DNA of 64,000 nucleotides from Roseicella sp. DB1501 (GTDB taxonomy: Bacteria > Pseudomonadota > Alphaproteobacteria > Acetobacterales > Acetobacteraceae), in assembly GCF_013112485.1 (NCBI RefSeq), contig NZ_JABFHG010000001.1, positions 372,001 through 436,000 on the forward strand, given 5' to 3'. The notes under the pieces were generated by a model. That model did no database searches. It saw only the letters and a program-made list of their open reading frames with translations, and was not told where the DNA came from. The position numbers and the translations under genes were made by a program. Positions 45,749 through 50,975 of this stretch are shown piece after piece. Within the stretch, counting starts at the first letter, position 1. Each line of letters opens with the position of its first letter.

Positions 45749-47464
45749 CTACATGCCGCCGATGTAGTTCGGGCCGCCGCCGCCCTCGGGCGTCGTCCAG
45801 TCGATGTTCTGCGACGGGTCCTTGATGTCGCAGGTCTTGCAGTGCACGCAGTTCTGCGCGTTGATCACCAGCCGCGCCCCGGCATCGCCGGCCTCGACCT
45901 CGGCGCCCTCGCCCGTCGCCTCGGCATCCGGCGTGCCCTTCAGCTCCCGCTCCGCCTCCGGCCCCACCGCCTCGTAGACCGCGGCCGGGCAGTAGCGGCT
46001 CTCCGGACTGCGGAACTGGTCCCAGTTCACGCCCTTCCAGCGCCCCGGATCGCGCAGCTTCAGATGCGCCGGCTGGTCCTCCTCGTGGTTGGTGTTGGAG
46101 AGGAAGACCGAGGAGAGCCGGTCGAAGGTCAGCTTGCCGTCCGGCTTCGGATAGACGATCCGCTTGGCCTCGGAGGCCTTCTTCAGCGTCTCGTTGTCCG
46201 CATGATGCCCCCAGGTCCAGGGCGCCTTGCCGCGGAAGAGGTAGGTGTCGAGCGCGGCATTCACCAACCCACCCCAGAGGCCGTACTTGGCGAAGCCCGG
46301 GCGGATGTTCCGCACGCCCTGCAGCTCGGTCCAGACCCAGCTCTTGCTGAGCGCCTCGGGATAGGCCTCGAGTACCGGCGGCCGCGCCTCGCCGGCCAGC
46401 GCCGCGGCCACCGCCTCGGCCGCGACCATGCCGGACTTCATGGAGGTGTGCGTGCCCTTGATCTTCGGCACGTTGAGGAAGCCGGCGGTGTCGCCGATCA
46501 GCATGCCGCCCGGGAAGACCAGCTTCGGGATGGCCTGGAAGCCGCCCTCGTTCAGCGCCCGCGCGCCATAGGCGATGCGCTTGCCGCCCTCCAGCATCTT
46601 GCGCACCTCCGGGTGCGTCTTGAAGCGCTGGAACTCGTCGAAGGGCGAGAGCCAGGGATTAGGATAGTCGAGCCCGATCACGAAGCCGATCGAGACCAGG
46701 TTCTCGCCCAGCATGTAGAGCCAGGAGCCGCCATAGGTGTCGCTCGCGAGCGGCCAGCCGGTGGAGTGCCAGACCAGGCCCGGTGTGTGCCGCTCCTTCG
46801 GGATCTCCCACAGCTCCTTCATGCCGAGGGCGAAGGTCTGCGGCGCGACGCCCTCGCGCAGCTTGTAGCGCTCGAAGAGCTGCTTGGTGAGCGAGCCGCG
46901 GCAGCCCTCGGCGAAGAGGGTGTAGGTGGCGCGCAGCTCCATGCCCGGCTCGTAATTCTGGCCCTTGGTGCCGTCCTTCAGGATGCCGGCGACGCCGGCG
47001 ATGACGCCCTTGACCGTGGCTCCCCCTGGCCCCTCCTCGACGATGGTCTCGGAGGCCGCGAAGCCCGGATAGATCTCGACACCGAGCGCCTCGGCCTTGG
47101 CGCCGAGCCAGCGGCAGACATTGCCAAGGCTAACGATGTAATTGCCGTGGTTGTTCATCTGCGGCGGCGTCGGCAGCTTGTAGGCCTTCGTCTCCGTCAG
47201 CAGCATGAAGCGGTCGTCGGTGGCGGGGGTCGCCAGGGCCGGCGGGTCCTCGCGCCAGTCGGGGAGCAGCTCGTCCAGCGCCCGCGGCTCGACCACCGCG
47301 CCCGAGAGGATATGGGCGCCGATCTCGCTGCCTTTCTCGACCAAGCAGACTGTGGCGTCGGGCGCGGCCTGTTTGAGGCGGATCGCCGCGGCGAGCCCGG
47401 CGGGACCGCCACCCACGATCAGCACGTCGAACTCCATCGCCTCGCGCTGTTCCGCCTCCGACAT
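45749..47464 (-). CDS. Electron-transfer flavoprotein-ubiquinone oxidoreductase (ETF-QO)
   Basis: Membrane-bound flavoprotein passing electrons from ETF (fatty acid and amino acid oxidation) to ubiquinone. The 571-aa protein has the FAD motif [14 protein letters not shown] near residue 13, [17 protein letters not shown] and the C-terminal [4Fe-4S] ferredoxin motif [21 protein letters not shown] 47464 follows GGAGGAG at 7-8 bp; an ATG at 47479 would cover that site. The acidic insert [15 protein letters not shown] before the cluster is unusual but probably a loop. Confidence 0.95.
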
Positions 47465-47588: not shown

Positions 47589-48422
47589 ATGGAGGCCGTG
47601 ACGCCGGAGGCGCTGCTCGCGGCGCTCAGGCTGCAGATCGACTGGGGGGCGGACGAGGCGCTGGACGCGGCGCCGCTCGACCGCACCCGGCCGGCCGGCC
47701 GCCCCGAATCGGCGGATGCCGCGGCCGCCGCCCCCTTCCCCGATGCCACCTCCCCCGGCGCCCGGCCGCCGCGCCCGGCCCTTGTCACGCCGCGCCGGGC
47801 TGCCATCGCCGCGCCGCCGGCAGCGAGCCGGGCCGCCGCCCTCGCCGCGGCGGCGGACAGCCTGCCGGCGCTGCGCGAGGCCATGGCCCGCTTCGACGGC
47901 AGCCCGCTGCGCGAGACGGCGACCAACCTCGTCTTCGCCGATGGCGCGCCGGAGAGCGGGCTGATGCTGATCGGCGAGGCGCCGGGCGGCGACGAGGACC
48001 GCCAGGGCAGGCCCTTCGTCGGCGTCTCCGGCCAGCTGCTCGACCGGATGCTGGCCTCGATCGGGCTGCGGCGGGAGGCGGGCGGCTTCTACATCACCAA
48101 TATCCTGCCCTTCCGGCCGCCGGGGAACCGCACCCCGACCGATGCCGAGATCACGCTCTTCCTGCCCTTCGTGCTGCGCCACATCGCCCTGGCCCGGCCG
48201 CGGCACCTGGTGCTGCTCGGCGGCGTCGCGGCCAAGTCGCTGCTGCGCTCGCGCGAGGGGATCACCCGGCTGCGCGGCCGCTGGCACGAGGTGACGGCGG
48301 AGGACGGGCAGGCCTGGCCGGCGCTGGCGACGCTGCACCCGGCCTATCTGCTGCGGACCCCCTCCGCCAAGCGGGAGGCCTGGCGCGACCTGCTGCTGCT
48401 GCAACGGCGCCTGGCGTCCTGA
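47589..48422 (+). CDS. Family-4-type uracil-DNA glycosylase lacking all cysteines
   Basis: DNA repair glycosylase homologue, 277 aa. After a variable, Ala/Pro-rich N-terminus (1-85) come the family motifs: [17 protein letters not shown] (129-145), [16 protein letters not shown] (169-184), and HPAYLLR (250-256). The protein contains no cysteine: positions that bind the [4Fe-4S] cluster in typical members are S105 (FDGSPL), F175 (LPFRPP) and F191 (LFLPF). It therefore cannot hold the usual cluster. It is divergent from ETF-QO and followed by three hairpins. Confidence 0.88.
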
Positions 48423-48595: not shown

Positions 48596-50386
48596 ATGCC
48601 CGTGACTCTTCCCGGGGCCCTGCGCGCCCTGCTGGCCGCGATGCCGCTCACCATGCCTCTCACCCTGGCGCTGCCCGGCGCGCCCGCCTCGGCGCAGCCG
48701 ACGCCGCAGCAGGCCATCGCGGCTGGCCCTGCCGCCCTGCCGCAGCTTCTCGCCCCCGCCGAGGCGGCGCGGCTGCGGCGCATCCTGGCGCTGCAGGCGC
48801 AAGGCGACCTCGCCGCCGCCCAGCAGGAGACGGAGCGCCTGGCCGACCGGCGGCTGCTCGGCCATGTGCTGGCCGACCGCTACCTGCGGCCGGGCGCCGA
48901 CCCGGGCCGCGCCGCGCTGCAATCCTGGCTCGCGCTCTATGGCGACCATCCCGAGGCGGGTGCGATCCAGGCCCTGCTCCGCCGGCTGCCGCCGCGCGAC
49001 GCGGTCCCGCCGGAGGCCGCCCCCGCTTCCGAGGCCGACCTCGCCGTCCCTGAGCAGTCGCCGCCCGACCCGGCGCTGCGACGCGACCCAGCCCTGGAGC
49101 GCGCGGTGCGCGAGCGGGCTGCGGCCGGCGATGCGGCGGGCGGCCTGGCCCGCATCGCCGAGGCGAAGGGCATCGCCCCCGCCTATGCCGCACGGCTGCA
49201 GGCCGAGCTCGGCATCGGCCTGTTCCGCGCCGGCCACGACGAGGCGGCGCTGCGCATCGCCGCCGAGGCGGCCCGCGCCGGCGAGGCCAGCGGCCTCGCT
49301 GCCTTCGCCGCCGGCTTGGCCGCCTGGGGCGCCGGCCAGCCGGACGCCGCCCTGCCCTATCTCGAACGCGCCGCGCGACAGGAGGGGGCGCCGCCGGCGC
49401 TGCGGGCCGCCGCCGCCTTCTGGACCGCGCGCGCCGCGGTGCGGGCCCGCCAGCCGGCGCTATACGTGCCCTGGATGCTGCAGGCGGCGCAGGCGCCGCG
49501 CAGCTTCTACGGGCTGCTGGCCCGCCGGGCGCTCGGCATCGGCGCGCAATTCGCCTGGGAGGCGCCGGCCGGCGCCGCCGCCTCGCCCCTCGCCCCCCTG
49601 GCCGAGAGTGCCGGCGGCTGGCGGGCCCTCGCCCTGCTGCAAATCGGCGCGACGGACCCGGCCGAGGCCGAGCTGCGCCAGCTTCAGGCCCAGGCCGGCC
49701 GCAACCCCGCCCTGCTGCGGGCGATGCGGATGGTCGCCGGGCAGGCGGGGCTGCACGGCCTCGCCGCGCAGCTCGCCGCCGCGCCGGAGGCCGCCGGGGA
49801 CGGCCCGCGCGACCTCGCCCGCTTCCCGCTGCCGGTGCTGCAGCCGCAAGGCGGCTACCGCATCGACCCGGCCCTGCTCTATGCCGTGGCGCTGCAGGAG
49901 AGCCGCTTCGATGCCGGCGCTGTCTCGCCCGCCGGCGCCCGCGGGCTGATGCAGATCATGCCGGCCACGGCGAGCTTCGTGGCGCATGACCCGGGCCTGC
50001 GGGGCGAGGCCGTCCGGCGGCTGCACGATCCGGGTCTCTCGCTCGAGCTCGGGCAGCGCTACCTGCACCATCTCGCGCAGCATGAGGGGATCGAGGGCAA
50101 CCTCGTCCGGCTGCTCGCCGCCTACAATGCCGGGCCAGGCAACCTGCTGAGATGGCTGCCGGCGCATGGCCATCGCGAGGACCCCTTCCTGTTCATCGAG
50201 GCGATCCCCTTCGAGGAGACGCGCCTCTACGTGCAGCGGGTGCTGGCCTTTTCCTGGATCTACGCCTCCCGCCTCGGCCTGCCGGCGCCGAGCCTGGAGG
50301 CGCTGGCGGCGGGGCGCTTCCCGCGCTTCGCCGGGCCGGAGCAGGTGGCGGCCTTGCTGGATGGGCGGGACCGTCCCCACCCTTAG
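48596..50386 (+). CDS. Soluble lytic murein transglycosylase
   Basis: Periplasmic enzyme cleaving peptidoglycan glycan strands with 1,6-anhydro product. The 596-aa protein has a signal peptide (to about LPGAPASAQ), a long alpha-helical superhelix (Ala-rich repeats, 40-400) and a C-terminal SLT domain: IDPALLYAVALQESRFDAGA with catalytic E435, GARGLMQIMPATA, and AAYNAGPGNLLRWL. GGGAA lies 7 bp before the ATG. A multi-hairpin region precedes it and moaB follows 49 bp later. Confidence 0.93.
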   Translation: MPVTLPGALRALLAAMPLTMPLTLALPGAPASAQPTPQQAIAAGPAALPQLLAPAEAARLRRILALQAQGDLAAAQQETERLADRRLLGHVLADRYLRPGADPGRAALQSWLALYGDHPEAGAIQALLRRLPPRDAVPPEAAPASEADLAVPEQSPPDPALRRDPALERAVRERAAAGDAAGGLARIAEAKGIAPAYAARLQAELGIGLFRAGHDEAALRIAAEAARAGEASGLAAFAAGLAAWGAGQPDAALPYLERAARQEGAPPALRAAAAFWTARAAVRARQPALYVPWMLQAAQAPRSFYGLLARRALGIGAQFAWEAPAGAAASPLAPLAESAGGWRALALLQIGATDPAEAELRQLQAQAGRNPALLRAMRMVAGQAGLHGLAAQLAAAPEAAGDGPRDLARFPLPVLQPQGGYRIDPALLYAVALQESRFDAGAVSPAGARGLMQIMPATASFVAHDPGLRGEAVRRLHDPGLSLELGQRYLHHLAQHEGIEGNLVRLLAAYNAGPGNLLRWLPAHGHREDPFLFIEAIPFEETRLYVQRVLAFSWIYASRLGLPAPSLEALAAGRFPRFAGPEQVAALLDGRDRPHP

Positions 50387-50435: not shown

Positions 50436-50975
50436 ATGCCGATCGACGAGAGCCTGCCCTTCCTCCCCGTCAACATCGCGGTGCTGACCGTCTCCGACAC
50501 CCGCGACCTGGCCAGCGACCGCTCCGGCCAGACCCTGCAGGAACGGATCGAGGGCGCCGGCCACCGCTGCGCCGCCCGCGAGATCACCCGCGACGAGGCG
50601 GATGCGATCGAGGCCATCCTGCGCCGCTGGATCGCCGACCCGGCCATCGACTGCGTCATCACCACCGGCGGCACCGGCATCACCGGCCGCGACGTGACGC
50701 CGGAGGCCTTCCAGCGCGTGCTGGAGAAGGAGATCGAGGGCTTCGGCGAGCTGTTCCGGATGCTGAGCTACCGCAAGATCGGCACCAGCACGATGCAGAG
50801 CCGGGCGCTCGGCGGCGTCGCCGACGGCACCTACCTGTTCGCCCTGCCCGGCAGCACCGGCGCGTGCAAGGATGCCTGGGACGACATCCTGGTGTTCCAG
50901 CTCGATGCCCGGCACCGGCCCTGCAACCTGGTGGAGCTGATGCCGCGGCTGAAGGAGCATGTGCGGGCGGCGTGA
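50436..50975 (+). CDS. moaB: MoaB/Mog-family molybdopterin protein
   Basis: Molybdenum cofactor biosynthesis protein (adenylylation of molybdopterin in the MogA/MoaB fold). The 179-aa protein has [19 protein letters not shown] at the N-terminus, the signature [17 protein letters not shown], and [15 protein letters not shown], the substrate-binding loops. Length and motifs match bacterial MoaB. It is 49 bp after the transglycosylase gene and converges on an amidase gene. Confidence 0.93.

Follow-up and report, generated by a model that had tools for sequence, protein, structure and literature searches.

The cysteine-free gene analysed here lies in a 64,000-nucleotide stretch of the genome of Roseicella sp. 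DB1501 (the window). It encodes an alphaproteobacterial orthologue of the family-4 uracil-DNA glycosylases (UDGs), and we propose that the protein is very probably an active glycosylase whose fold does without a [4Fe-4S] cluster (probability roughly 0.8, from sequence comparisons and a predicted structure). We also lean towards a broader proposal: the Alphaproteobacteria ancestrally swapped the family-4 cluster for an aromatic plug, with phenylalanine at ligand 1 and tryptophan at ligand 3, and the stranded pair of cysteines decayed many times. UdgX would have lost all three of its cluster cysteines at once, separately, in some of the same genomes.

A probable variant of family 4 without the cluster

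The earlier note had described the gene as a family-4 UDG homologue of 277 amino acids without any cysteine, and this is correct. The open reading frame is in place on the forward strand (Table 1), its product has 0 cysteines, and it scores 182.2 bits against the family-4 profile (TIGR00758 UDG_fam4; cut-off 125.3 bits) and E = 4e-34 against the Pfam UDG profile. Motif A is GEAPG (residues 129–133) and motif B is HPAYLLR (residues 250–256), in agreement with the family-4 motifs GE(A/G)PG and HPA. Among named relatives, Roseicella frigidaeris (L036) is the closest; its UDG is 88% identical.

Table 1. Features of the UDG gene and its neighbours, with positions in the window.
Feature	Position	Strand	Basis or remark
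Family-4-type UDG homologue, 277 aa, without cysteine	47589..48422	+	ORF, profiles
N-terminal helix, residues 6–27, motif aLxxQ/WxxxGADEAL..P.DR	47604..47669	+	Model and motif score
F102, site of cluster ligand Cys 1	47892..47894	+	Alignment; codon TTC
S105, site of cluster ligand Cys 2	47901..47903	+	Alignment; codon AGC
E130 (Thermus UDGa E41), motif A GEAPG	47976..47978	+	Alignment
N171 (Thermus UDGa N80), bidentate uracil recognition	48099..48101	+	Alignment
F175, site of cluster ligand Cys 3 (mostly W across the class)	48111..48113	+	Alignment; codon TTC
N180 (Thermus UDGa N89), water positioning	48126..48128	+	Alignment
F191, site of cluster ligand Cys 4	48159..48161	+	Alignment; codon TTC
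H250 (Thermus UDGa H155), leaving-group stabilisation, motif B HPAYLLR	48336..48338	+	Alignment
Divergent neighbour: electron transfer flavoprotein-ubiquinone oxidoreductase (ETF-QO), with its own 4Fe-4S domain	45749..47464	-	Conserved neighbour, separate from the enzyme
Downstream neighbour: SLT-domain lytic transglycosylase	48596..50386	+	
Downstream neighbour: MoCF_biosynth domain (MoaB-like) protein	50436..50975	+	

Family 4 is also recognised by four cysteines that bind the [4Fe-4S] cluster, and all four are missing: the sites hold F102, S105, F175 and F191. The last three align with the second, third and fourth cysteines of Thermus UDGa (C16, C84 and C100). The earlier note had named these three replacements correctly, but it had missed the fourth site, F102. 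Because the protein is an orthologue of family 4, yet the defining cluster ligands were tested for and are absent, it is best described as a family-4 variant without the cluster, a form typical of Alphaproteobacteria. Its function is probably family-4-like, although by its cluster ligands it is not a member of the family.

We also considered the neighbouring UDG families. The protein shares its fold and an overall family resemblance with UdgX (Mycobacterium smegmatis type, PDB 6ail), but motif A is GEAPG instead of GEQPG (with Gln), the KRRIH loop is absent, the score against TIGR03914 (119.7 bits) is below the cut-off of 189.95, and UdgX is encoded by another gene of the genome (L002). Family-5 UDGs (UdgB) are defined by GLAPA as motif A and HPSPLN as motif B, as given in PMC10359453, and the window protein has GEAPG and HPAYLLR instead. 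The intact frame and dN/dS values well under 1 rule out a pseudogene. A literature search, which covered few subscription journals, found no account of a cluster-free alphaproteobacterial family-4 UDG or of a cluster-free UdgX.

A complete uracil pocket and a confident predicted fold

The residues known to form the uracil pocket of Thermus UDGa (E41, G42, E47, F54, N80, N89 and H155, according to PMC5387724) correspond one to one to E130, A131, E136, F143, N171, N180 and H250, so the protein has every residue with a known role in the chemistry. The statement in the earlier note that the glycosylase motifs are intact extends to every mapped pocket residue. If catalysis follows the family-4 mechanism, the flipped uracil would be bound by N171 and F143, H250 would stabilise the leaving uracilate, and N180 would place the attacking water. 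All these pocket residues are kept in 105 of the 109 orthologues sampled from the class (described below) and in 30 of the 32 Acetobacteraceae sequences that have neither cysteine 2 nor cysteine 4.

The predicted model has a mean pLDDT of 82, rising to 91–98 per ten-residue block across residues 81–200, which include all four ligand sites. Its best match in the PDB is Thermus thermophilus UDGa (1ui0; TM score for the target 0.89, rmsd 1.5). With 1ui1 included, the TM scores are 0.89–0.91, at 38% amino acid identity. Besides the fold, the two proteins share motif A, motif B and all the uracil-pocket and catalytic residues. Unlike Thermus UDGa, the window protein has 0 of the 4 cysteine ligands, and it carries an additional N-terminal helix and Ala/Pro linker (about 90 residues).

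Several other signs point to function. Ten pairs of relatives without ligand cysteines have dN/dS of 0.035–0.235. ETF-QO is the divergent neighbour at 29 of 31 loci, distant ones included, and the other two loci begin at a contig end just upstream. The genome has five UDG-superfamily genes, and the TIGR00628 profile for Ung (family 1) found no match in the whole genome at E ≤ 1. Caulobacter is described as having four UDG-family genes, none of them similar to E. coli Ung (PMC1839093). The model, the purifying selection, the conserved synteny and the absence of Ung all support a working enzyme.

Work on families 4 and 5 suggests that such an enzyme could do without its cluster. From mutants of both families, PMC5295032 reports that the cluster is non-essential for excision and adds stability: archaeal family-4 enzymes with cysteine-to-serine changes lost only about 40% of their activity, and a family-5 enzyme without the cluster was still active, with lower thermostability. 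These engineered enzymes (from P. furiosus, A. fulgidus and S. acidocaldarius) resemble the window protein in that the cluster has been removed, and the mutants keep partial activity. They are laboratory mutants, however, whereas the window protein belongs to a natural lineage with replacement residues.

Cluster ligands 1 and 3 are missing from the sampled Alphaproteobacteria

In a search at the protein level, 186 of 192 genomes sampled from the class and 149 of 150 sampled from the order contained the gene or a relative. From the 186 genomes with a match we took the 109 best-ranked orthologues, one fetched per genome, so this is a non-random sample. None of the 109 has cysteine at ligand 1 (101 have phenylalanine) or at ligand 3 (108 have tryptophan). 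At ligands 2 and 4, both cysteines are present in 85, one only in 12 and neither in 12. The commonest form, with F-C-W-C at the four sites, accounts for 81 of the 109. Similarly, ligands 1 and 3 are cysteine in 0 of 69 sequences from Acetobacteraceae, and ligands 2 and 4 are both cysteine in 32, with neither in 32 and one only in 5. The whole core is free of cysteine in 28 of these 69 and in 3 of the 109 class sequences. (We dropped L031, which had no tblastn match, and merged identical cores, which reduced 239 sequences to 231. The named loci L036–L066 share organisms with unnamed ones, such as L007 and L038, and were therefore kept out of the counts.)

The window protein resembles the F-C-W-C orthologues in its aromatic residues at ligands 1 and 3, in the N-terminal motif, which is frequent among them, and in its ETF-QO neighbour, which is shown for Reyranella/Enhydrobacter-type loci. 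It differs from them in having serine and phenylalanine in place of cysteines 2 and 4. Serine and phenylalanine are also the usual residues at these two sites in the Roseomonas group.

Outside the Alphaproteobacteria, 49 of 49 family-4 sequences, all from Pseudomonadota, have cysteine at all four sites (22/22 within the best 30 matches and 27/27 more, lower-scoring ones included). The ligands of the latter 27 were read by eye, including nine loci outside the motif pattern. The family-4 PDB sequences of Thermus, Sulfolobus and Thermotoga visibly have cysteine at ligands 2–4. Non-alphaproteobacterial family-4 loci with a decayed motif A (L302 and L305–L309) also keep all four cluster cysteines.

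A probable order of loss

On a FastTree tree of 225 sequences, built without the four ligand columns, ligands 1 and 3 change once each and ligands 2 and 4 change 17 times each, counts that do not in themselves separate gains from losses. Because ligands 1 and 3 change only once each and cysteine is found there in none of the class sequences, each of these two ligands was probably lost once, near the base of the class, and the cluster probably went with them, to judge from the FastTree topology and from sequences of one phylum together with those of family 4 in the PDB. Most likely, then, loss of the cluster is class-wide, and complete loss of cysteine came later and repeatedly.

The earlier note had asked for a phylogeny that could reveal a cysteine-free clade. 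In a tree of 75 sequences, again without the ligand columns, 23 Acetobacteraceae sequences that lack the ligand cysteines do form a clade (support 98/93), which L024 joins weakly (82/28). To explain the sequences with neither cysteine 2 nor cysteine 4, the best tree requires at least six changes, and the well-supported branches by themselves at least four. Because of these repeated changes, sequences outside the clade (for example L069, L089/L092, L135/L155 and L136/L165) are placed by the tree as independent losses of the pair. The clade, the confident model at the cluster site, the purifying selection and the complete pocket support the idea, also from the earlier note, that a structure-stable, cluster-free branch exists. 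But this branch is wider than the cysteine-free genes, since cysteine at ligands 1 and 3 is absent from 109/109 class sequences.

Our proposal for how this came about is as follows. Near the base of the Alphaproteobacteria, cysteine 1 would have become phenylalanine and cysteine 3 tryptophan, and the bulky side chains of these two residues would fill the space of the cluster. In families 4 and 5, the cluster mainly braces a loop and is dispensable for chemistry. Cysteines 2 and 4, stranded with no cluster to hold, would then have been lost repeatedly, often both together. Losses at positions 105 and 191 do fall on the same branch in 7 of 16 cases (1.6e-7 by chance if all branches are treated as equal, which ignores branch lengths), and a coupled loss of the two cysteines is likely. 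A test for paired loss with independent pairs had 3 usable pairs only (median p = 1). As a rough indication, the shared-branch losses hint at a disulfide, or some other common role, for the leftover cysteines in the two-cysteine form.

Alternative explanations

In other Acetobacteraceae, the orthologue has decayed in the opposite way. The pocket is not intact in 30 of the 69 sequences, and of these 30, 23 keep both cysteines, 5 keep one and 2 keep none. The uracil-binding N171 is proline in 25/69 and N180 is glycine in 24/69. In Thermus UDGa, the N80A change is reported to lower activity about 40-fold (PMC5387724). Most of L216–L245, as well as L065 and L066, have lost pocket residues while mostly keeping the cysteine pair, and the ETF-QO neighbourhood is shown for L065 and L066. 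These orthologues are possible candidates for an inactive or repurposed UDG.

We therefore considered that the cysteine-free protein might also have a lost or altered glycosylase activity and serve just to bind DNA or another partner, a role for which synteny and the N-terminal motif would have been kept. The decayed orthologues show that the gene can stay beside ETF-QO without an intact pocket, two pairs of them have dN/dS of 0.24–0.38, and the conserved N-terminal helix hints at a partner. However, the decayed pockets are mainly in sequences that keep the cysteine pair, and the window gene, like nearly all Acetobacteraceae sequences with neither cysteine, retains every pocket residue. So we consider loss of activity in the window protein unlikely, and the suggestion in the earlier note that activity has been altered fits instead those Acetobacteraceae that kept the cysteine pair and lost the uracil-binding asparagine. 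It is very improbable that a metal or cluster is still held by other ligands, such as Asp, Ser or His near residues 103–105. Non-cysteine cluster ligands exist in other proteins and D103 adjoins two former ligand positions, but neither the phenylalanine at ligand 1 nor the W/F at ligand 3 can coordinate a metal, and the replacements at ligands 2 and 4 vary by lineage (S, T, L, F, M and Q), as would be expected if no ligand is needed there. We consider it extremely unlikely that this lineage started out without the cluster and that other lineages acquired it. The counts of changes on the tree do not give a direction, but the conserved cysteines of Thermus, Sulfolobus, Thermotoga and the other Pseudomonadota, and the two cysteines that remain in most alphaproteobacterial sequences, lead us to argue for loss rather than gain. 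Finally, the chance that sequencing or assembly errors created three or four of the replacements is negligible: the four sites also read F/S/F/F in the independent genomes of R. frigidaeris and Paracraurococcus (L037), and none of the 23 sequences in the clade has cysteine at any of them.

UdgX and other cluster enzymes

The Roseicella genome itself encodes a second UDG that lacks cluster cysteines (L002:421-2016, on G000:C44). In this fusion protein a TIGR03915 domain precedes the UdgX part, which retains GEQPG and GRRRLH and has 0 of 3 cluster cysteines. (We take the three UdgX cysteines to be cluster ligands, as in the M. smegmatis enzyme.) Among 42 UdgX domains, 30 of which come from a selection biased towards the cysteine-free query, all three cysteines are present in 21 and none in 21, with 0 intermediates. 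Two further families of the class also have cysteine-free UdgX (L317 and L318). On a tree that includes the ligand columns, the cysteine-free sequences make up one group. Without these columns and with 12 more sequences, the best tree requires two changes of the cysteine state, only one of which is forced; L320 is outside the UdgX tree. M. smegmatis UdgX is described as carrying a cluster (PMC10359453).

Going by the ligand residues, the losses in family 4 and in UdgX are not strictly linked, because opposite combinations occur: genome G066 has a cysteine-free family-4 gene and a cysteine-bearing UdgX (L008 and L116), and G068 and G149 have the reverse (L215/L111 and L213/L112). We also rejected the idea that repair clusters have been lost throughout the genome. 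The UdgB-like family-5 gene of the same genome (L003) keeps its cysteines (CPLC, RC and TC), and two EndIII_4Fe-2S loops score above the cut-off; the proteins that bear them are presumably Nth and MutY. As a side note, three UdgX matches contain one in-frame TGA each (G126:C2:77832-78437, G033:C1:933934-934521 and G121:C2:789-1364) and are possibly decaying copies or sequencing errors.

BdiUng of Bradyrhizobium is reportedly cluster-free. Like the window protein, it is an alphaproteobacterial enzyme of the UDG superfamily (PDB 5gn2), but it belongs to a different family and is only a distant fold match (TM 0.37, 16% identity).

Implications for the role of the cluster

Whether the [4Fe-4S] clusters of DNA-repair enzymes serve structure, DNA contact or redox signalling is debated. 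If our broader proposal is true, then the cluster in this group of enzymes is a repeatedly replaceable structural brace and not a required cofactor for redox or for searching DNA, even though the genome's proteins resembling UdgB, Nth and MutY retain their clusters. With one fold and one active site, relatives with all four cysteines, two-cysteine intermediates and cysteine-free end points would be ready-made controls, from a class-wide lineage, for the contribution of the cluster. Labelling these proteins as iron-sulfur family-4 enzymes would probably be wrong for most of a bacterial class.

An N-terminal helix motif

Many of the alphaproteobacterial orthologues begin with a helix motif, W/Q xxx G A/V D E A.... 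P. D R, that precedes a disordered linker. In the window protein, the linker is Ala/Pro-rich and modelled with low confidence (about residues 30–75). By an ad hoc score, at least 6 of 8 motif positions are found in 77/109 class sequences, 58/69 Acetobacteraceae sequences and 1/22 non-alphaproteobacterial sequences; 23 of 178 alphaproteobacterial sequences gave no candidate, perhaps partly from short fetched frames. The motif is a candidate partner-binding peptide.
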